Source of the DNA: Vulcanimicrobiota bacterium
GTDB lineage: Bacteria > Vulcanimicrobiota > Vulcanimicrobiia > Vulcanimicrobiales > Vulcanimicrobiaceae
Assembly (NCBI GenBank): GCA_027307235.1
Contig: DAHUXH010000016.1
Span: 1-64,000 of the forward strand
Direction: 5' to 3'
Length of the DNA: 64,000 bases
The notes under the pieces were generated by a model. It saw only the letters and a program-made list of their open reading frames with translations. It did not search any database and had not been told where the DNA came from. The position numbers and the translations under genes were made by a program. Position 1 is the first letter of the stretch, and each line of letters begins with the position of its first letter. This document shows, in pieces, positions 505 through 16,027 of the stretch.

Positions 505-3500
505 CTATGCAGCGACTTGGCAAAGAAGTTCGGCTTGTTCTAAGACTTGCTTGGCAGCGCTCTCCATTGCGTCCGGAGGGTAGCCATGCTTGCGCAGCAA
601 CTTCTTGATTTTTAGCCTGATCCCAGCGCGAACGCTTTCGCGCAGGTTCCAGTCAATAGTGGCGCTTTCGTGAACGCTCTTGACCAGGTCACGGGCGATA
701 ACCCGCAGTCGCTCGTCGCCCAGCACTTCGACTGCGCTCTTGCTCTGCGCTAAGGCATCATAGAAGGCGAGTTCGTCATCGGACAAGCCCATCTGTTCGG
801 CGCGCTTCGGCTCGTCACGGAGCTCCTTTGCAAACTCGATAAGATGTTCGATGAGCTGCATTGTCGTGAGCGAGCGGCTCTCGTACTTGTTGATTGCCTC
901 AGCCAGCATATCCGAAAACTTTCGCGCCTGAACTGCGTTCTGCCGAGATCGAACCTTGATCTCGTCGCGTAGAAGGCGTTCGAGCATCTCGCGCGCGAGG
1001 TTTCGCTGCTCGATGCCGGCGAGTTCCGCCAGAAACTCGTTGGAGAAGACGGAGATGTCGGGCCGTTGTATCCCGGCTTGTTCCAGGACGTCGACGATGC
1101 CGCGTGAGCCGACCGCCTCAGAAACAAGCTGTTGAAGCGCGAGATCGATCTCCTCAAGGCTTTGGCCTCCGGCCGGCGAGATCTTGACGATAGTCGCTCG
1201 TACGCCCTTGAAAAAGGCTACCTCATCAGCAATCCCGCGCGCGTAATCGGACGTCGACGCGAGCGAAAACGCTTTCGCTAGACTAGCGCAGCTTCGAAGA
1301 TATCGCTTCTTCCCTTCGTCAAGGCCCAGGATATGATCCGTGCCTTTCGTGAGGCCGAGCATCTTCTGCGCAGTGTCACCGTCGAGGTACGCCTGATACG
1401 GAAAGCCGTGGAACATGCCGCGGACGATCTCATAATCGCGCTGCAGCACGGCAACGGCGTCCCGCTCGTCCAGCACCGGCTCGCCGGTTCCACCAGAATC
1501 AATATAAGTCGCGAGCGCGCGCTTCAAGTCGTCCGCGATACCGAAATAGTCCACCACGAGGCCACCAGCCTTGGTTTTGAAGACGCGATTGACCCGCGCG
1601 ATCGCCTGGACGAGGCTATGGCCTTTCATCGGCTTGTCGACGTACATCGTGTGCAGCGACGGCACATCGAAGCCAGTGAGCCACATATCCCGTACGATCA
1701 CCAGTTTGAGCGGATCGCTCGGATCCTTGAAGCGCTTCTCGATCGAGCGACGGCGCGGTTTATTGCGGATGTGCGGCTGAAGGAGCATTTCATCCGCCGC
1801 GCTGCCGGTGATGACCACCTTAATAGCGCCCCTTTCATCGGCGTCGTCGTGCCACTGAGGACGCAAAGCAATGATGGCCTCATAGAGCCGCGCGCAGATG
1901 CGCCGACTCATGCAGACGACCATCGCCTTGCCTTCGAACTCGAAGCCCTTCTGGCGCCGCTCGAAGTGCTCAACGAGGTCGCGCGCGATCTCTTCGATAC
2001 GGGCCTCGGTGCCGACGAGGGCTTCGATCTGCGACCAGCGGCTTGCGCTGCGGCGCTTGTCGTCGTCCTCTTGGCCCTCGGTGATCTCCTCGAACTCCTC
2101 GTCGAGATACGAGACTTTCACTGGGTCTAACTCAACCTTGACGACACGTGCCTCGTAGTAGATCGGCACCGTCGCGCCGTCCTCGACGGCGCGGCGCACA
2201 TCGTAAACGTCGATGTAATCGCCGAAGACGCTGCGCGTATTGCGGTCGGTGAGTTCGACCGGGGTCCCAGTAAAACCGATGAACGATGCGTTCGGGAGCG
2301 CGTCGCGGAGGTGCCGTGCAAAGCCATAGGCCATCTCGCCGGTCTCATCATTGAGCTTACCGCCGAAGCCGTATTGACTGCGGTGCGCCTCATCCGCAAT
2401 GACGATGACGTTGCGCCGATCCGTCAGTGCGGGATACCGTCCGCCGTTCTCTTCGGGCAAGAACTTCTGAATGGTCGTAAAGACGATGTGGCCGGAGGCG
2501 ACCGCGAGCGCCTGGCGCAGGTCCTCGCGGCTTTCGGCTTGCTCCGGTGTTTGGCGCAGAAACTCCGTACAGCGCATGAACTGCCCGAAAAGCTGATCGT
2601 CGAGGTCGTTGCGATCGGTCAGCACGACGAGGGTCGGGTTCGCGAGCTGCGGTTGCTGCGCGATTTTTGACGCGTAGAAGGTCATCGAGAGGCTCTTGCC
2701 GCTGCCCTGCGTGTGCCAGAAAACCCCGATACGGCGGTCTCCGCCCTCAGCCGTTGCCGCGATGGTGCGGTCGATCGCCTTGTTTACGCCGTAGTACTGG
2801 TGATAGGCCGCGAGAATCTTGTTCGGCGGCATCGTCGCCTCGAACAGGATGAAGTGGCGAAGGGTGTCGAGCAGCCGACGCTTTTCGAAAACCTCATTTA
2901 CGAGCGGTTCGATCTCAACCGGAACCTTAGCGCCGTCCTCGCGCTTCCAGGTGCTGAAGCGCTCCCAATCGGCGGTGAGCGAGCCCATCTTTGCCTGCGT
3001 ACCGTCGGCGACGATCAAGAGCTCGTTATACGCGAGCAAGCCGGGGAGGTCGCGTTTGTAGGTCTGCGTTTGGCGGAAGGCGCTGAGGATGGTGGCCTTC
3101 TCGTCCATCGGGTTTTTGAACTCGAAGAGCGCAATCGGCAGGCCGTTGATGAATACGAGCAGATCGGGGCGCCGCTCACTGGCGTCTTCTTTGATCGTGA
3201 ATTGATTGACTGCTAGCCAATCGTTGGCATCGGGGTTCTCGAAGTCGACGATTCGTGCTTTGGCATAGCGGACGCCACCGGCGCCGTCGCTGTACTCAAC
3301 GTCGACGCCTTCGATGAGGAACTTGTGGAAGCGCTGGTTGTTCAGAACGAGGTCGGTCGTCTCGTGAACCTTGACCTTGCGCGTCGCATCGTCGCGCGCG
3401 GACGGCGGGAGCAACGGGTTGAGACGAGCAATCGCGGAACGAAGCCGCTCGACGAGGACGGCGTCTTTGAACGACTTGCGCTCTTCTCGAGCGCCGTCCA

Positions 3501-3597
3501 GCGCGATGTCTGCACCAGGTAGGTAGGCGTAACCTAGGCCCTTGAGCAGCTCGATCGCATACTGCTCGACCGCGTCCTCGTTAAGGTAGCCGGACAT
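505..3597 (-). CDS. hsdR: Type I restriction enzyme, R (motor/nuclease) subunit
   Basis: This 1030-residue protein is the DNA-translocating and cutting subunit of a type I restriction-modification complex (R2M2S). The N-terminal nuclease has a PD-(D/E)xK layout with D145, E159 and K161. It is followed by a superfamily 2 helicase motor with Walker A TQGSGKS (296-302), DEAH (402-405), an FTGTP motif and the helicase motif VI region with QAIARVNR. The C-terminal helical part that docks on the methylase is present. The ATG at 3597 directly abuts the hsdS stop codon, so the gene is cotranscribed with hsdS and hsdM. The length is normal and no frameshift is visible, so it should be functional. Confidence 0.96.
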
Positions 3598-4908
3598 CTA
3601 GGCGGATTGCTCCACCAGGCGTTCCGCGCCCGTCACGCGGATTTCGCCGGAGATGAGCTTCGGGAGCAGTGTGTCACGAAGCTCAACGATGGTGCGCGAC
3701 TGGTGGATTGCGCTGACCATCCGTTCCATCATTTGAGCGATAGTCGTTGTAAAAAGGCGTGCAATGGAGATGGGCGGTAGGGCCACTTCGTAGCGAGCGA
3801 TGTGCTCCCAAGACGCGCGCGGCATCTTAGTTCCAGTTGAACACCGATCCGTGTGGGCCACCAGCTCATCGCTGCTGAGATGCAGAACAACATACGCAGC
3901 CCAGTCTGCAGAGGAGGGCGAAACAACAAGGATGTCCGTCGAACAAACCCCATCAACCGGCGCTATACCTACTTTGTGAAAGTACGGGCGCAATTTTCCG
4001 AAGAGGAACTCTCCCCGCCTAAATTGCGATTTGTTGCTTTCCAGTTGCGCGGCATGCTCCCAGCGATCCAATGCGATGTTCCGGCGTGGCATATGCTCAA
4101 GCCCTATGTAGGGCGTTTCGTCAAGGATGTCAGCATGTAAAATCGCGCGGCGCTGATTCTTCGCGACTTCGCCAAGCGCCCCGACCCTCCATCCCTTTGG
4201 GATTTCTCCTAACTCAGAATCCTCGAATGAATCAGGGAAGAGCGCGGCGATCGCCGGTGGGAGGCCGGTGTCGCGGCCTTTGGCTTTTGCGCGGACGGGG
4301 TCGAAGTCGACGAACCACGATTTGAACAGCGCGCGCGCCATCGCCTCAAGCGTCGCGCTCATTTTGCGATTCAATTCGATCTTGTCATCGAGCGCGCCAA
4401 GGATGGACGCGATCGCGCGTTGCTCATCAAGAGGCGGAAATGCGAAGCGCAGCGACTTTATCGTTGCCGCGCTTAGGTTCTGCTGAGCTGCCCCAACTGC
4501 AAGGTTGACCAGTTTTGGACGGGCATTTAGGAGAGCGTAATAGATGAACCGGTAGTTTGCCATAGCATCGTCAGCGATAAGCGCGCAGCACGCCTGATTG
4601 CACGTCATCTCACGAGAAAGAATGGCAAGCTTTCCGACCGTTGCCCCGTACATCGCTAACAGAACGGTGTTTGTAGGCAATACCTTAGCAGAAGAGCGTT
4701 GCACCGCTTCTTCGGTAATTTGCTCTTCGGTATCTCGCAACCAGCCGTCTCGGAGCTCTTGAGTCTTCACCCATGGCCAAACGCCATCGGCATAGAATGC
4801 AGGCGTTTTGCGGCTTGGAGTGCCACCGCTTGTGACACGCTGGCAGACATCATCAATCGAGCGCAGATGCCATCCTTGGTGGAGGACTTCGGAATCGCTA
4901 AGATTCAT
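3598..4908 (-). CDS. hsdS: Type I restriction enzyme, S (specificity) subunit
   Basis: This 436-residue protein sets the DNA target of the type I complex. It has the usual two half-repeats: a first target-recognition domain (about 10-165) ending in [21 protein letters not shown], which leads into a conserved helix, then a second domain (about 230-385) ending in a similar helix with [16 protein letters not shown]. The second half lacks the exact PPL-EQ signature and has [11 protein letters not shown] instead. The start overlaps the end of hsdM by 11 bases and the stop abuts hsdR, so the three subunits form one operon. The recognised bipartite sequence cannot be predicted from sequence alone. 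Confidence 0.93.
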
Positions 4909-6478
4909 AGCCGAGCTGCGCCAGCGCCGCAGTTATCGAAGCGTCGAGATTCAACGCCTCTCGCTGTTGCACGCGCAGAAGCGACGTCAGGCGCGTCATC
5001 TTATCGGCAAATGGTTCGTTGTCGTCTTCCGGTTCTTCGGTGCCGACGTAGCGGCCAGGCGTGAGCACGTGCCCGTGCTTCCGTACCTCGTCGAGTGGTG
5101 CGGCCTTGCAAAAGCCGGGAACGTCTTTGTAACCGCCGTCCTTGCCGCGCCAGGCATGGTAGGCGCTGGCGATATTGGCGATGTCTTCGTCAGGCAGAGC
5201 CCGATGCGTGCGGTCCGTCATCTCGCCCATCTTGCGGGCGTCAATGAACAGAATTTCGCCGCTGCGATCGCGGAACTTGTGGTTGCGTCGGTCGCGCGCG
5301 AGAATCCACACGCAGACCGGAATCGGCGTCGTGTAAAAAAGTTGGCCTGGCAACGCAATCACGCAGTCGACAAGCCCGCCGTGCTCCGCCTCGATGAGGT
5401 TCTTGCGAATCTCGCCCTCGCCGCTTTGATTAGACGACATCGAACCGTTCGCCATGACGAACGCCGCAACACCAGTCGGCGCCAGGTGATAGACGAAGTG
5501 CTGAACCCAGGCGTAGTTTGAGTTTCCCGCCGGTGGGACGCCGTAGCGCCAGCGTGGGTCGTTACGCAGCCCCTGGCCGCCCCATTCGCTGTCGTTGAAC
5601 GGCGGATTGGCGAGAATGAAGTCGGCCTTCAGGTCCGGGTACGCATCCTGGAGGAACGAGCCACCCTCGTTCCAGGTGATGTCCGCTTCGATCCCGCGAA
5701 TCGCGAGGTTCATCATTGCAAGACGCCAGGTCGTGTGATTCGACTCCTGGCCATAGATCGAGACGTCGCCGATCTTCCCGCCATGAGCGAGAACAAACTG
5801 CTCGGACTGCACGAACATGCCGCCCGAACCGCAGCACGGGTCGAAGACGCGCCCTTTGTACGGTTCGATCATCTCGACCATGAGCCGCACAACTGAACGC
5901 GGCGTATAAAACTCGCCGCCCGCCTTTCCCGCGGCGTTTGCGAATCGCCCGAGGAAGTACTCATAGACACGCCCGATGACGTCGTGCTTGCGCGCCTCCG
6001 CGTCACCCAGGCCGATGCCGTTCACGAGATCGACGAGCTGACCGAGCCGCGTCGATCCGAGCGACGGCTTCGCATATTCCTTCGGAAGCACACCGCGCAG
6101 GCGAGGGTTCTCGTGTTCGATCGCTATCATCGCCTTGTCGACGATCTCGACAATCTGCGGCGACTTCGCTTGCGCCGCGATCTGCGACCAGCGCGCCGCC
6201 GGCGGCACCCAGAACACGTTGCACGCTTTGTACTCGTCGCGATCCTCGGGGTCCGCCTCACGATCGGCAGCGAGTTGCACGTGCAACTCCTCGAATGCGT
6301 CGGAGATGTACTTGAGGAAAATCAGGCCCAGAACAGGATGCTTGTATTCTGAGGCATCCATCGAGCCGCGCAGCGTATCTGCAGCAGACCAAAGAGTCGC
6401 TTCGAAACCTAGCTCGCCATTCTTCTCTCTTGCCTTCGGCGACGACGCCGACCCGTTCGCCTTCCGCCCGCGCGGCAT
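4898..6478 (-). CDS. hsdM: Type I restriction enzyme, M (N6-adenine methylase) subunit
   Basis: This 526-residue protein is the adenine methyltransferase subunit. It contains the HsdM N-terminal helical domain, the [10 protein letters not shown] segment, the SAM-binding motif [11 protein letters not shown] (about 212-222) and the catalytic NPPF (about 291-294). I chose ATG 6478 (MPRGRK...) rather than the longer frame from 6511 because family members begin near this point and a purine-rich GGGGAGGGA lies 10-12 bases upstream. It is the first gene of the hsdM-hsdS-hsdR operon. The operon is transcribed away from the tRNA-Glu gene, about 100 bases upstream. Confidence 0.95.
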
Positions 6479-6579
6479 TGCCCTAAGTCCCTCCCCGCAA
6501 AGCACCTGCAAAGCAATTCGAAGCTACTACGTCAATAATCGCCCAGCGACGCGGAATCCTCGAAACCAAGGGCTCGATG

Positions 6580-6654
6580 TGGTAGCGCCAACGGGAATCG
6601 AACCCGTCTTTCCGCCTTGAAAGGGCGATGTCCTAACCGATAGACGATGGCGCC
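6580..6654 (-). tRNA. tRNA-Glu (UUC)
   Basis: On the minus strand this 75-nt sequence folds as a complete tRNA with an encoded CCA end. The acceptor stem GGCGCCA pairs with TGGCGCT. The anticodon stem TCGCC/GGCGG encloses the loop CTTTCAA with anticodon TTC, and the T arm ACGGG/CCCGT holds the loop TTCGATT. The 3' end faces the restriction island, the usual orientation when an island has integrated at a tRNA 3' end. Confidence 0.96.
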
Positions 6655-6731
6655 GCAGGACCCCCGCTATTTGACTATGGAACGGGTGCCCCTGTCAATT
6701 TGATCGGTCGGCGTGCGGGACGGGGTCGTGA

Positions 6732-6806
6732 TGGTGGGCCCGGTAGGATTCGAACCTACGCGCAACCAGTTATGAGCCGGCCGCTCTACCGCTGAGCTAC
6801 GGGCCC
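6732..6806 (-). tRNA. tRNA-Met (CAU), elongator type
   Basis: The minus strand gives a 75-nt tRNA with acceptor stem GGGCCCG paired to CGGGCCC, encoded CCA, anticodon loop CTCATAA (anticodon CAT) and T loop TTCGAAT. The first base pair is intact and the anticodon stem lacks the three G:C pairs of initiator tRNA, so it is an elongator Met tRNA; a tRNA-Ile2 with modified CAU cannot be fully excluded. Confidence 0.93.
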
Positions 6807-6878
6807 GCGCACGCACGCTCGCCCGGGGGCGAACGTGCGTGATGGGTTCGTTCCGGCCTTTCGATACCCTAGAGGCGG

Positions 6879-8969
6879 CTATACACCCGACGGCGTCAGC
6901 GCGAGCTTCCCGAACGTCGAACTCGACAATTCGCCGCTCGGCCGCTGTCCGCGCGGAAGTTCCTCGGTGTGCGTGCCTTCGCCGACCGTGAAGGTTCCAA
7001 CCATCTGCGTCAGCTCTTGGCCGTCGTCGCGCAGCGCCGTGACGGTCCCCGCGAGTTGCGAGACCTGCGCGGCCAGTTCCGACACGGATGCCGAGACCTG
7101 TTCGGCGGCGGCGGATTGCTCCTCGGACGCGACCGCGATCAACGCGATCGTATCGTTGACCTCTTGCGTGGTGGCGCTCATCTGCCGGGCCGCGGCCGCG
7201 TTCTCTTCGATCACTTGCGACACGTCCATGACGTGCTGCGAAACGTTCTGACTGCCCGCACTCATGCGCTTTGCTCGCTCCTGCATCTCGCGTGCCGCGC
7301 CGTGCGCTTGATTCACGACTTCCTCGAGATGTTTGAGCGCGTCGGACGCGGTGACCGCGAGGTCGAGCCCCTGACGCGTCGCCGACGACGAGCTTTTCAT
7401 TGCGGCTTCTGCTTCCACCGTCTCCGCGCGAATCGCCGAGAGAATGTCGCTGATCTCGCGCGTGGAAATCGCCGAGCGCTCGGCGAGCTTGCGCACTTCC
7501 GCGGCGACGACCGCGAAACCGCGACCGTGCTCACCGGCGCGTGCCGCTTCGATGGCGGCGTTGAGCGCAAGCAGATTGGTCTGGTCCGCGATGTCGCCGA
7601 TCGTCGAGATGATCTCGCCGACGGCGAGCGACCGCGACGCGAGCGAACTCATGCGCGCGGCCGCGACATCGGCGTCGTCGCGAATCTTACCCATCGCTTG
7701 GGTCGTCTTCGCAACGGCATCGAATCCGGTCGCCGCTTCGTGCATCGAGCGTTCCGACGACTCGCCGAGCGTGGCGGCAAACGTCATCGTTTCGCCGATC
7801 TCGGCGCTCAGATTTGAAATGACGTCGACCGCTTGACGAATGGACGTGGCTTGCTCGACCGCGCCGCTCGCGATCTGCGTCGATGCGCTCGCCAGTTCTT
7901 CGAGCGCACGGCTGACGTTGCGCGTCCGTTCGGCCTGATCGCGCGCACCGTTGGCAACTTCGGAGATCGCCTCTGAAATTTCGCGCACGGCGATCGACGA
8001 CTGCGCCATCGACGCCGACATCTCTTCGCTCGCGATGCCCAGTCGCATCGCGGCGCGCGCAACCGCACCGATGACTTGGCGCAAGCGCGCCGATGATGCT
8101 GAAAACGCATTGCCCATCTTCGAAAGACCGGCGGCTAATGCGTTGTAACCTTTGCGCAACGTCCCGACCTCGTCGGCACGCGCGTCATCCAAATGCGAAC
8201 GGTCGGACGAAAACGTTCTCGTGAGATCACCGCTCGAGAGGGCGCCGAACGCGTCGGTGAGCCGGAAGAAATCCGCGGTGACGACGTCGTTGAGCGCCTC
8301 GGCGACTTGCCCGATGCTGCGCGCGAGCGACCGTCCGAAGACAACCGCGATCAGGATGCCGATCGCGATTGCGACCGCGCCGAGCGCGATACCGAGCACG
8401 AGCGCCAACAGCTCCAGTTGCGTCGTCTTCGCTTGAGCGAGCGTAATCTGCTGATCGACATATGCGCGGTACTGCTCGATGGCCGTCAAGCTCGACTCGT
8501 ACGGCACGCCGACATACGCCGCGGCCGCCTTGTCGAACTGATGCGCAACGCGCATCGCGAAGGCTTGCTCGTTGCCGGCTTGATACGTCTTCCAGAAGGT
8601 CGCAAACTGCGACAGATCCGCGCGCTGCGCATCAGTGTCGGCATACGAATTGGCAAGCGCCAGATAGCGATCGACTTGCTGCACTTCGCCGCGATACTTC
8701 GGCATCTCGGTGCCTTTGGCGCGACCGTCGTCGTGATCCATGACGTACCACGCGCCGTCGTCGTCAGCGCTGCGTAATCCGATGACGATGTTGAGTGCGG
8801 CGTTCTGCGCGGGCACCAGCCGCTGCGCGACGAAGTTCGTCGAGTTGGTTTGGTCGCGCACGACGACCAGCGTCACGGAAAGCGCGATCGCGAAGACCGC
8901 GAGTACCGCACCGAATGAAACAATGAGCTTCCGTCCGATGTGAAGGTTCGACCACAGACCCGAAAACAT
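6879..8969 (-). CDS. Methyl-accepting chemotaxis protein
   Basis: This 696-residue transmembrane chemoreceptor has an N-terminal membrane helix (about 13-35), a periplasmic helical domain of about 150 residues resembling a four-helix-bundle ligand domain, and a second membrane helix (about 183-212). A HAMP-like linker and a long cytoplasmic coiled coil follow. The hairpin tip carries the signature [19 protein letters not shown], which binds CheA and CheW. A good ribosome site (AAAGGGAG) precedes the ATG at 8969. It lies alone between the tRNAs and eno, and no che kinase genes are in the window. The ligand is unknown. Confidence 0.93.
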
Positions 8970-9095: not shown

Positions 9096-10872
<1,777 letters not shown>

Positions 10873-10903
10873 AGCCCGGCCGGAATACGGCAATCAAGCG
10901 CGT

Positions 10904-11704
10904 ATGCCTGTCGTGATGACCGCCGGCTCCCTGCCGTCACACCCCTACCTGCGCACCGCCCAGGCGCTCGCGGGCTCGCGCTTCGCGACGATACGCTATT
11001 GCGAGCGAACCGCCAGCACCAACGAGGACGCGGTCGCGCTCCTCGGTGACGCCGCGTCGGCGGGGACCACGCTCGTCGCCGAAACGCAAGACCGGGGCAC
11101 CGGGCGCAAAGGGCGCAGTTGGATCGCGCATCCGGGAACCGCGCTGCTCTTCACCACCATCCTTCCCGAGCCGGTCGCAACCGATGCGCTGTGGGCGACC
11201 ACACTGTGGAGCGCGCTCGCGGTTCGGAGTGCGCTGCACGACCACGGCGTGAACGTCGATCTGCAATGGCCCAACGATCTGCTGCTGCATGGAAAGAAGC
11301 TCTGCGGCATCCTGTGCGTATCGCGCATCGTCAACCGGCTCGCCTGGGTGGGGTGCGGCATCGGCATCAACGTCACGCGCACGCCCGGCGCGGCCGACGG
11401 CATCGAACCGCCGCCGTCATTTTGCAGCGACGCCGCGCCCGTCGAGCGCGACGCGTTGCTTGCGTCAATACTGCACTCGTTCGACGCGAATGGCGCATTG
11501 CTGAAGACGCCGCGCGCGATCGCGCAACGTTGGGAGCGGGAAGCAGGGTTGCCGGGAAAACGCTACCGCATCCTGCGCGACGGCGATGAGCGCGCCTTCG
11601 ACGCCATTGCTCTCGCCCTCACCGGCGACGGTTCACTGCTCGTGGAGACGCACGAGGGCGATCGACACACGATCGCCCTCGCCGACGCACGGATCTTGCG
11701 TTAG
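10904..11704 (+). CDS. birA: Biotin--[acetyl-CoA-carboxylase] ligase
   Basis: This 266-residue enzyme activates biotin as biotinyl-AMP and attaches it to the lysine of a carrier protein. The nucleotide/biotin loop DRGTGRKGRSW and the segment QWPNDLLLHGKKLCGIL are diagnostic. A small C-terminal domain (about 215-266) is present. There is no N-terminal helix-turn-helix, so it is a monofunctional ligase and not the BirA repressor type. ATG 10904 is chosen because the upstream frame runs antisense through ndk. It converges on the DUF3343 gene with a 1-base gap. Confidence 0.93.
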   Translation: MPVVMTAGSLPSHPYLRTAQALAGSRFATIRYCERTASTNEDAVALLGDAASAGTTLVAETQDRGTGRKGRSWIAHPGTALLFTTILPEPVATDALWATTLWSALAVRSALHDHGVNVDLQWPNDLLLHGKKLCGILCVSRIVNRLAWVGCGIGINVTRTPGAADGIEPPPSFCSDAAPVERDALLASILHSFDANGALLKTPRAIAQRWEREAGLPGKRYRILRDGDERAFDAIALALTGDGSLLVETHEGDRHTIALADARILR

Positions 11705-11705
11705 G

Positions 11706-11921
11706 TTATTTCAGAACGCCGCCGAGCGCGACGCCGGAGCCGGCAATGGCTGCGGTCGCCTGAGTTTCCGCGCCGGCGTCGATGCTCAAGCAGAGATTCG
11801 ACGCTGTCGTCACGCTGGCCGGTTTGGGAATCATCTTCGCGGTAACACCGGCATCTTTGAGCGCCTTGGTGGCGATCATGGTGTCGGCATTACTCGCGAA
11901 GAACAAGATGACGTCTGCCAT
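11706..11921 (-). CDS. DUF3343-like small protein (putative Se/S carrier family)
   Basis: This 71-residue protein resembles DUF3343 (PF11823): an N-terminal strand ADVILFFASN, a helix, then GVTAKMIPKP and a second strand. Family members usually carry a Cys-Gly pair after the helix; here the region reads TASNLCLSI, so a single cysteine (C44) sits one or two positions away and the glycine is missing. I chose ATG 11921 because a strong GAGGGAGG ribosome site lies just upstream. It is the third gene of the split chemoreceptor operon, 10 bases after the Cache sensor. Its function is unknown; family assignment is moderate. Confidence 0.65.
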   Translation of the reverse strand: MADVILFFASNADTMIATKALKDAGVTAKMIPKPASVTTASNLCLSIDAGAETQATAAIAGSGVALGGVLK

Positions 11922-11931
11922 ACTGCCTCCC

Positions 11932-13266
11932 TCAATTCGCCTCACCGGTTACTAGGGCGTTCAGGGCTCCGGCTACGTCGTTGAGTTCATGCACGCGGTC
12001 GACGGCCTGTTGCATGCGCGTGCTCATCTCTTGCGAGAGCGTGTCGATGACGATCACGTCGTTGCTCAATTCGTCGTTGAGCCCCTTGAGCTGCGCGACC
12101 TTTCCGGTCGGGTCGCCGGCCTTGGCCAGTTCGTCGATGATCGCACCGCTTTGCTCGACGACGTTCTTGGTCATCGCGACGTGGTCGCCCGAAACCTCGC
12201 TGCCGACCATGACGACGCCCAGTTCCTTGGCGGCGCGGCGCACTTGGATCGAGCGTTCCGCGAGCATCTTGGAAAGACGCCGCACGATCGGGATGGAGAA
12301 CACGAGTGCGAGCAGCGCGGCGACGATGCCCCAGAGAACCAACGTTCGCGTCGTGTTGTTGATGATGTCGTCGATGCGTGCCTTCGGCACGCCGTACCAC
12401 TGGGCGCCGATGACTTTATTTTGATCGTCCACAATCGGCTCGATGTGGACGAGGTAGGCGGTTCCGCCTTGCGTGTCGGTACCGTCGAACGGTTTGTTCT
12501 GCGCGACCGTCGCGAACGGTGCGACGGTACGATCGACCAGACGTGTGCCGTCGCCGGGCGACGGAATACTGCTCGCGATGATCGCGTCGCCTTCGAGCAG
12601 CGCAGCCTGACCGCCGAGCGCCGCCGACGCTTCATCGACGATGTCGTAGACATGGTTCATCAGGACGCCGCCATACACGGCGCCGATCGTGCGCTGGTTT
12701 TGATCGGCAATCGGCGCGGCCGCGATCAAACTCAAACCGCTCGTGACATGCTCGACCGTCGAGCCGTCGGGACCTTTCACGTCCGACGCCGCCTGGTCGG
12801 CCAGCCCCTCTCCGGCAAGTTCCGTTGACGGAAGACTGGCGGCCACGCTCACCGTCTTGCCGGTCAGCGCGAGCGCCACGAACCGGTTCTGCGCGAGCGA
12901 ACCCGGCGTCGTCCCGGTGGCGCGCGCGATCACCTTGCCTTTGGGATCGACGATCGTCAACCACGACAGGCCGGACTTGCGCGCGTCGTTGGCAACTTCG
13001 TCCTGCAGCGCTTGCAGATTCCCGCTCACCAAGTCCTTGCGAATCTCGGTCGACAGTGCGTCTTGCGCCACCAAGAGCTTGATTTGATCTTGATGGGAAG
13101 TCCAATACCCGCCGAACGCGTGTGATCCGTTGGTGACCTCCTGCGCGCCGAGCGTGCCGAGGTCGTTTTGCATCGTGATGCGCGCGGCGATCACGCTGAT
13201 CAAAAAGAAGACGACGATCGCTGCAATGATCGTGCCCAGGAGCCTGGTCTGTAGCGACATTTTCAT
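11932..13266 (-). CDS. Cache-domain membrane sensor without a signalling domain
   Basis: This 444-residue protein has a membrane helix near the N-terminus (about 8-30), a periplasmic region of about 260 residues that looks like a double Cache ligand domain (segments such as [18 protein letters not shown] and [18 protein letters not shown]), and a second membrane helix (about 305-330). The roughly 110-residue cytoplasmic tail is predicted helical. The tail has no MCP signalling tip, histidine kinase, GGDEF or HAMP signature. Its ATG overlaps the TGA of the upstream chemoreceptor gene (ATGA at 13263-13266), so the two are translationally coupled. It probably supplies ligand sensing to that protein; this partnership is inference. 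Confidence 0.8.
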
Positions 13267-14942
13267 TCGTTGACGTCCTCCGTGCCGGAATCGCTTGCTT
13301 TGAAGTGTGCCAAACGGTCGTCGATCCGAGCGGCAAGATCGTTCATCTGACCGACGGAGTCGAGCATGCGTCTGGCCGCGTCGCTGACCTCTTTGTTCAC
13401 GTAGGTCAGCACTTCGACCGAGGACGCGTTCTGGTGTGAGATCGACGAGATGTCACCGAAGGCCCGGTTCACTTCGTCGGAGTGGCGGTTCATCGACTGC
13501 GTTGCGGTCAAGTTCAGTCCCACCGAACGCGTGATCTCCTCGATCGAGCGGACGACTTGATATGAGTTGGAACTCATCTCTCGCGTCATGCCGCTGATCT
13601 CGAGGATCTGGCTATTGGCGGTCAAGACAGCTTGCACGATCTCGTTGAGCGCGACCGATGCCGAACTCGTGCTCGACACGCTCTCCTCGACGCGCTGCGT
13701 CAGGCGCTCCATCGCCTCGACGACTTCGGCGATCACCGTTTGCGTGGAGGTGATGTGCCCGGCGATTTCTTTGGTCGCGGAGACGCTGCCGTCTGCGAGC
13801 TTGCGAATTTCGCTTGCGACGACCGCGAACCCACGCCCGTGTTCGCCGGCGCGCGCGGCTTCGATGGCCGCATTGAGCGCCAGCAAATTTGTCTGTTCGG
13901 CGATGCGGTCGATGACTTTGACGATGTCGCCGATCTGTTCGGAATTCGAACCGAGTTGCCGGATGTCGCCGGCCAGTTCGTTGATGGTCTGACGGATGGT
14001 GTCCATGCCGGCGACGATCGTGTTGATCGCCGTGCCGCCGCGCTCGGCGGTTCGCGAGGTCTCGGTCGAGATCGTCGAGAGTGAGTCGATCTGCGCCGTC
14101 ACTTCGTCGATGGAACTCGCCATGGTGGAGACCGAGAGCGCGGTCTCATCCAGGCTGCGCGTCTGTTCTTCAGCGGCGGCGGCGATCGAGGCGATGGCGT
14201 CGGTCAGCGAACGGACCTTCAGCGTGCCTTCATCGATGATCCGCGACTGCTCCCTGGTTCCTTCGTCGAGCTGTCCTTGCGCGACCGAGGCGCCTTCGAT
14301 GACGGCCAGCGCAGTGGAGGCAGTGCTCTGCAGATCACCGCCCGCGCTTCCCAGATTGCGGGCGCTCTCGAGCATGTTCGAGAGAAACTCGCGCATGCCG
14401 AAGATCAACTTGTTGAGCGCGATGGCAAGCTCTTGCAGCGAGCCTTCCGATACGGCGATGTTTTTGGTGAAATCGCCTTGCGCGACGTCGCGCACACCGG
14501 CGGCAAGCTGCGCGATACCTGACTGTATGGACGGGGCACCGTCACCGCGCGGCAGCGCGGCACGACCGCCCGCGCGCACGACCAGAATGCCGGGACCGTC
14601 CTCGGCCGCCTCGATGGCCGGCACGCCCCCGGCAAAGAGGCTGGCCGCTGCGATTGCGCCGATCGCCGTCAAGACCGCGCCCCACAGCGCGGCAGCCGGA
14701 GACGATGCGTTCTTGGCCGCGAAGTCGAGAGCGGCGACCGCGATCGCGGCCACGGCCCCAATCGGAAAGCCGGCGACGGCGGCGACGACGGCCACGATTG
14801 CGACCATCACGGCTTCGATCGCCGGGACCGGCGGAACCACCCACGCGAGCACGCCGCACACGACAACGCCCGCGAGCGCGAGAAGGGCGCGAGCAACGAT
14901 TCCGGCGCGTAAACGAACTCCGGCAAGATAGGCTTGAATCAC
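13263..14942 (-). CDS. Chemoreceptor signalling protein with a membrane anchor but no ligand domain
   Basis: This 559-residue protein carries three or four hydrophobic helices in its first 130 residues with only short loops, so there is no periplasmic ligand domain. A HAMP-like stretch (about 150-200) leads into a complete MCP signalling domain with the hairpin signature [19 protein letters not shown]. The ORF can start at TTG 14969, but GTG 14942 has a GAGGGG ribosome site at a good distance and is preferred. It is the first gene of an operon with the Cache sensor (ATGA overlap) and a DUF3343 protein. No methylesterase or kinase genes are nearby. Confidence 0.88.
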
Positions 14943-15070: not shown

Positions 15071-15607
15071 CTAGTTGCGGGCGCGCGTGATGCGCTTGTC
15101 GCAAACTTCACAAAAGTACGACATCTTGTTGTCGGTCTCGAAGATGGAATGCGAATAATACATCGCACACCGCACGTTGTAGCAGTGTTTCAACCCCAGT
15201 GAATGCCCGAGCTCGTGCACGCATTCTTTGAGCGCGCGTTGAAACAGCAGATTCGAGTCGGGATCTTCACCGTAAAACTCAGAACGCAACCGGTGCAGCG
15301 AGACCGCGGCCATGCGCTGTTGTTCGTCGGCATCGCCGAAGATAAAACGGTGCGAGGTCTTGTAGAGGTCGAAATCGGTGACGGCCAGCAACGTTCCGCC
15401 GTCGTCCGGGAACGCGCGCGCGACCCGGGTCGTGAGCGTGTTGAGAAAGAGCTGCGCACGCGTGTTGTTGAGCGCGCTGCGCGGAACGGCAAGCGCGCGT
15501 TCGACGCGGGCGGACATGAGGAACCGCTCTTCAAGACAGATCGCGAGACGGTCAAGAAAGATCCCGTCCAATGCGTTGATCGGCACGATGCGAATGCGCG
15601 ACTCCAT
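15071..15607 (-). CDS. Archaemetzincin-family zinc metallopeptidase
   Basis: The protein has the archaemetzincin signature HELGHSLGLKHC (H131, E132, H135, H141), followed by CAMYYSHS with the Met-turn and a downstream FCEVC pair. The four cysteines form the second, structural zinc site of the family. At 178 residues from ATG 15607 it has the usual length. The longer frame from 15682 would overlap the divergent acpS start and adds a non-conserved segment. Archaemetzincins (AMZ) are common in archaea and vertebrates and patchy in bacteria; substrates are unknown. Confidence 0.9.
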   Translation of the reverse strand: MESRIRIVPINALDGIFLDRLAICLEERFLMSARVERALAVPRSALNNTRAQLFLNTLTTRVARAFPDDGGTLLAVTDFDLYKTSHRFIFGDADEQQRMAAVSLHRLRSEFYGEDPDSNLLFQRALKECVHELGHSLGLKHCYNVRCAMYYSHSIFETDNKMSYFCEVCDKRITRARN

Positions 15608-15668
15608 CGGGGAGGCATATTTCGACACCGCAGCCGGAAAACTTGTCACGTGCTGCGAAGGTCGCACC

Positions 15669-16027
15669 ATGATCGTCGGCATCGGCCTCGACCTCGCCGA
15701 AGTGCGGCGGTACCGCTTCGACGAACGGCGTCTGGCCTGGTTCGCGCGCAGAGTCTACACTGACGAAGAGATGGCCTACGCGATGGGCAAGCGGCACTGG
15801 CCCGAACGCCTGGCGGGATTCTTCGCCGCGAAGGAGGCCGCGCGCAAAGCCTTCGGCCAAGCAATTCCTTGGCGGGCCGTCGGCGTCACGCACGAACGTA
15901 CCGGAAAGCCCGCGCTGCATTTCTTTGGCCGGTACACCGAACTGACGCGCGAACGCGGCGTTCGCATCGTTCACGTCACGATCACCCACACGGAGACGAC
16001 CGCCGCTGCGCTGGTCGTTCTCGAATC

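Follow-up and report, generated by a model that had tools for sequence, protein, structure and literature searches.

A conserved gene set in Candidatus Eremiobacterota that probably encodes a chemoreceptor of separate sensor and transducer chains

Introduction

Nearly all bacterial chemoreceptors are single chains. What does it mean, then, when a transducer without a sensor and a sensor without an output are encoded side by side? Such a division is seen in the sensory rhodopsin-Htr systems of haloarchaea, in which a separate membrane-embedded receptor and an MCP-like transducer form one complex, with a retinal-binding seven-helix photoreceptor that has no sequence relation to the proteins described here. 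The question is raised by a locus of uncultured bacteria of the Candidatus Eremiobacterota, found in a 64,000-nucleotide stretch of DNA (the window). An original prediction had read positions 11706-14942 of the window as two genes, one for a methyl-accepting chemotaxis protein (MCP) and one for a Cache protein. We retain this pair and add a third gene (11921-11706) that lies within the same range and had been overlooked.

A sensor-less MCP beside an output-less Cache protein

Three minus-strand genes lie in series: the MCP gene (14942-13263), the Cache gene (13266-11932) and, 10 nt beyond its end, a gene for a 71-aa protein (11921-11706). An M54 metalloprotease gene (15071-15682) is the upstream neighbour and a convergent biotin-ligase gene, birA (10802-11704), the downstream one. 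The features of the first two genes are as follows.

13263..14942, minus strand: transducer MCP lacking a sensor domain, 559 aa, starting at GTG (PF00015, E 1.5e-44)
14622..14900, minus strand: MCP membrane region of about four helices, residues 15-107 (hydropathy and alignment of orthologues)
14373..14519, minus strand: HAMP-like segment, MCP residues about 142-190 (PF00672 below threshold; conserved in the orthologue alignment)
13791..13898, minus strand: MCP signalling tip, residues 349-384 (36 residues), nearly invariant (conservation 0.98-1.00)
13263..13266, minus strand: 4-nt overlap, ATGA, between the stop of the MCP gene and the start of the Cache gene (sequence)
11932..13266, minus strand: Cache sensor subunit, 444 aa, ATG start, no output domain (PF17202, PF17203; AF2 model)
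12352..13176, minus strand: periplasmic Cache domain, residues 31-305 (profile matches and AF2 model)
11935..12282, minus strand: cytoplasmic helical tail of the Cache protein, residues 329-444 (115 residues; AF2 and alignment)

Elsewhere the window carries Type I restriction-modification genes (hsdR, hsdS and hsdM, 505-6511, minus strand) and, across eno, a second MCP, of the ordinary one-chain type with HAMP and a four-helix-bundle sensor (6879-8969, minus strand).

The first gene of the set encodes a chemoreceptor transducer. Its PF00015 match spans residues 291-472 in the family profile search, with the signalling hairpin and conserved tip that mark this family, and its signalling and methylation layout matches that of the genome's other MCPs in alignment. 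Methylation helices, named from the E/Q-pair consensus that we take to define them, are present as two orthologue-consensus stretches of 15 and 12 residues that align with the matching helices of those other MCPs. We had considered the 12-residue block, whose conservation (0.99) equals that of the tip, as a docking patch for a partner, and rejected this because in ordinary MCPs it corresponds by alignment to the second methylation helix. The HAMP profile PF00672 matches residues 142-177 below threshold (12 bits against a cut-off of 25). The loops between the membrane helices in residues 15-107 are short by hydropathy and therefore leave no room for a periplasmic sensor, and the family profile search found no periplasmic or sensor domain family in 13263-14942; a sensor domain of its own, which is usual in MCPs and not required, is absent. 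The membrane region is also the least conserved part of the protein (mean distance 0.68), and two of its helices are missing from three orthologues in the alignment.

The second gene supplies a sensor and nothing that resembles an output. The protein matches PF17202 (sCache_3_3, E 1e-12) and PF17203 (sCache_3_2, E 3.8e-10), and it has the arrangement of a single Cache sensor, with the Cache domain between two membrane helices (residues 9-27 and 310-328 by hydropathy). The AF2 model (mean pLDDT 83.6) shows a confident Cache fold with Foldseek matches to LuxQ, DctB and 8py1, and the best PDB sequence match of the domain is the formate-bound chemoreceptor sensor 8py1 (E 7e-4). From these nearest relatives we would guess at a small carboxylate such as formate as the class of ligand. 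Single-chain sCache chemoreceptors, including 8py1 and 8py0 as well as L134 and L138 of the same bacteria, which carry a related sensor, share this sensor fold and two-helix topology; unlike here, the same chain runs on from the second membrane helix through HAMP to the signalling hairpin.

In the model, the tail of the Cache protein continues a helix of residues 295-382, with a weak hinge at 353-358 that is followed in the alignment by a conserved VGSEVSGDH, and ends in a second helix (389-440). The original prediction had allowed that the tail might turn out to match another output module, and profile searches found no Pfam or NCBIfam domain over it. Nor does the tail look like a hidden HAMP or MCP remnant, an idea that we rejected when profile comparison with the MCP or its HAMP gave only 3-6% probability; a match to BM2 protein was set aside as chance similarity between helices. 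A likeness of 14 residues between the end of the tail and the second HAMP helix is treated as a lead and not as evidence. No such tail was found in a search of plasmids, and no fused MCP bearing a tail of this type was found. Both proteins are thus much as the original prediction had them: an MCP of 559 residues with membrane helices and a full signalling tip but no periplasmic domain, overlapped at ATGA by a gene for a Cache protein with two membrane helices and an output-less helical tail. This clean division of sensor and output between two chains supports a receptor made of separate chains.

Such a receptor would have a pathway to act on. About nine MCP signalling domains in this genome share a single CheA and a single CheW, both encoded in a chemotaxis cluster with the order flhB, flhA, a PilZ protein gene, cheY, cheC, cheA, cheW (flhB, flhA, pilZ, cheY and cheC were named by inspecting translations).

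A third gene with a DUF3343-like product

The unit does not end with the Cache gene.

11921-11706, minus strand: 71-aa protein of the DUF3343/Se_S_carrier fold, third gene of the unit (PF11823, 28 bits; AF2)

Its match to PF11823 (Se_S_carrier) exceeds the curated cut-off of 25 bits, as do those of most, not all, of its orthologues, and it is the best conserved of the three genes (61-87%). The AF2 prediction is a ferredoxin-like beta-alpha-beta-beta-alpha-beta fold, so that the protein resembles the Se_S_carrier/DUF3343 family in both profile match and predicted structure. It differs from the canonical PF11823 members of the phylum, whose SCG/ACG motif we read from L142, L146 and L148: the cysteine of this motif, presumably the carrier residue of the family, is absent from all 22 copies compared, which have S/A-N instead. 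A PII- or ACT-like identity was rejected, since the matches are weak (best E of 0.017, VIA Z no higher than 7.6) and reflect only the common ferredoxin-like arrangement. In the open-access literature we found no relevant paper linking DUF3343 with chemotaxis.

A further DUF3343-like copy is found in one genus directly behind a different sensor-only protein, with no adjoining MCP. This multi-helix membrane protein has about 220 aa, no Pfam match and a short helical tail. The loci are:

L083, 6839-7710: second DUF3343 with multi-helix sensor
L084, 6800-7677: the same
L087, about 6400-7338: the same
L088, about 1240-2111: the same

The small protein is thereby tied to output-less sensors a second time.

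Distribution, co-inheritance and joint loss

The original prediction had proposed a search for the same gene pair in other genomes, and this search shows the pair to be conserved, co-inherited and lost as a unit, so that the ground for refutation named there, a pair that is not conserved, does not hold. MCP and Cache homologues occur in 45 of the 99 genomes of the family, the Cache gene adjoining the MCP gene wherever the contig permits, with 44-65% Cache identity and intact reading frames over dozens of genomes; the three-gene set is limited to this one family of one phylum. The -4 overlap is kept in all 31 loci that contain the junction (28 ATGA, 3 GTGA, with starts taken as the codon nearest the homologous position), and the order M54-MCP-Cache-DUF3343-birA is constant across loci.

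Co-inheritance is strict. Among the 55 high-quality genomes (completeness of 90% or more, contamination of 5% or less), MCP and Cache occur jointly in 25, are both missing from 30 and never occur singly (Fisher P 3e-16, a value that ignores relatedness). Where the full set of 99 genomes shows discordances, a contig end or a paralogue accounts for them. The presence of DUF3343 agrees with that of MCP and Cache except in G094, which has only a DUF3343 paralogue and whose locus falls at a contig end.

Eight negative genomes have a clean empty site, with M54 directly beside birA. On a FastTree phylogeny of six neighbouring genes, in which some deep branches are weak, negatives fall at three or more separate places among the positives (L172, L180 and L181; L173 and L177; L175; L178 or L182 near the base). 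This scatter indicates repeated joint loss of the three genes, apparently as one block on three or more occasions. Genomes in which the region lies at contig ends or is missing from the assembly (G029, G031, G032, G036, G042, G049, G055 and G094) were not scored as losses, and no partial state of the set was found among the genomes examined. Because one deletion can remove three neighbours, joint loss supports joint function without proving it.

The two larger proteins also diverge in parallel. Divergence of the MCP (HAMP and signalling parts) and of the Cache protein (sensor and tail) correlates at r 0.83-0.90, and at 0.69-0.75 after correction, whereas either protein follows the flanking genes more loosely (r 0.45-0.73).

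Additional Cache subunits

Some loci have more than one Cache gene. In G001, G056, G064 and G042 a second, divergent Cache-only protein is encoded just upstream of the sensor-less MCP; in G066 only a fragment of this upstream gene is left, of which the start and tail remain. One genus has the Cache-DUF3343 pair twice behind a single MCP, in full in G024 and, in G023, as two DUF3343 copies that each stand behind a Cache end.

L043, 5885-7129: second Cache-only protein upstream of the MCP
L046, 9738-11012: the same
L053, 9982-11238: the same
L067, 2738-4018: the same
L052, 2679-5249: repeated Cache-DUF3343 unit
L129, 3-2701: the same
L130, 6-383: the same

In G001, G056 and G064, where both copies are comparable, the paired Cache proteins share 27-31% identity in the sensor and 42-49% in the C-terminal tail. 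Conservation of the tail over the sensor is the pattern expected if the tail must fit the transducer while sensors diverge, and may reflect this; alternatively, coiled parts may simply evolve slowly.

Genomes that have, or have had, the upstream Cache gene also carry a gene between DUF3343 and birA whose product is serine carboxypeptidase-like by its motifs GGPGCAS and GESYGT.

L043, 10476-12104: carboxypeptidase-like gene
L046, 4894-6414: the same
L053, 4957-6579: the same
L050, 8717-10294: the same

Discussion

We think it probable that these genes encode a chemoreceptor of separate chains, in which a Cache sensor, a sensor-less MCP transducer and a small third partner work together. The two-subunit receptor of the original prediction thus stands as the best reading of sensor and transducer, given their conservation and co-inheritance, and has to be widened by a third protein that belongs to the unit. 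How might the chains be coupled? We infer a route in which the Cache subunit, probably a homodimer, would bind, in the periplasm, a small ligand from outside the cell, and binding would shift its second membrane helix. The cytoplasmic tail would pack on the HAMP-like and upper coiled-coil parts of the MCP dimer, and the MCP would relay the change to the cell's only CheA-CheW pair and on to the flagellum. The DUF3343-like protein may bind at or near the Cache tail and aid assembly or coupling.

Some findings speak against this reading: the set is limited to one family, no fused MCP bearing such a tail was found, and in profile comparison the tail shows no resemblance to the MCP or its HAMP. Other explanations have to be weighed as well. 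The MCP could be an ordinary sensor-less or membrane-sensing receptor that merely shares an operon with a separate Cache-DUF3343 signalling unit, for instance one regulating an unlinked partner; a sensor with DUF3343 and without an adjacent MCP does exist in one genus, and the part repeated in tandem is the Cache-DUF3343 pair. We regard this as unlikely, since every high-quality genome with the Cache gene has the MCP gene too. Moreover, the one part of the MCP that might serve as a sensor of its own, the membrane region, is less well conserved than any other, and three orthologues lack two of its helices. Lower still is the probability that the Cache protein is a modulating partner and not a dedicated sensor, joining this MCP and others of the array in mixed bundles and tuning how they signal. 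That one MCP can be accompanied by two different Cache subunits, and that about nine MCP signalling domains use one CheA and CheW in common, would suit such a role, but the protein is strictly coupled to one MCP orthologue and diverges in parallel with it. That mutation or misassembly has broken up an ordinary one-chain receptor can practically be dismissed: in a normal Cache receptor the domains come in the opposite order to these genes, and the conservation of the split, with frames intact over dozens of genomes at Cache identities of 44-65%, already refutes it.

The separate-chain receptor could go further than one fixed set. Tentatively, and with the odds against it, we can imagine a plug-in receptor in which one sensor-less MCP serves several interchangeable transmembrane sensors with a common docking tail, and a repurposed DUF3343-fold protein couples these tails to it; the unrelated multi-helix sensor that precedes the second DUF3343 copy would be coupled in this way too.

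The original prediction saw a two-chain receptor as an unusual departure, and here it has to be corrected, since bipartite receptors are already known. CetA/CetB of Campylobacter jejuni pairs an MCP with a cytoplasmic PAS sensor (PMC2628428), and in CetBA2 of Magnetospirillum gryphiswaldense, whose sensor CetB2 is an FAD-binding PAS protein, the genes overlap, the proteins interact and the single deletions look alike (PMC12442639). In principle the present set would work in the same way: as in both, sensor and MCP transducer are separate proteins of adjacent genes, overlapping in CetBA2 and here, and the MCP, like CetA, which has HAMP, combines membrane helices and a signalling hairpin with no sensor domain. 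The present set thus has a sensor-less MCP gene beside a gene for a sensor-only protein, as CetA/CetB does; it is not filed with CetA/CetB because its sensor, in place of a cytoplasmic PAS protein, is a transmembrane chain whose sCache domain is periplasmic and whose helical tail is long. A further difference is the DUF3343-like protein, the third member of the unit. The co-component systems VtrA/VtrC, whose genes overlap, and ToxR/ToxS likewise build one transmembrane sensor from two proteins (PMC9214523), with DNA-binding output instead of chemotaxis and domains unrelated to those here. We found no report of a separate transmembrane Cache-only receptor subunit in the open-access literature, and what appears new here, judged from sequence, is this subunit and the third partner.

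If this reading is true, nature separates transmembrane sensor and transducer as receptor engineers do in chimeras, and signalling across subunits would be needed. One could then ask whether a foreign helical tail packed on HAMP and the upper bundle drives a chemoreceptor, and whether sensors can be exchanged on a single transducer. A DUF3343-fold protein would gain a role in signalling as well.
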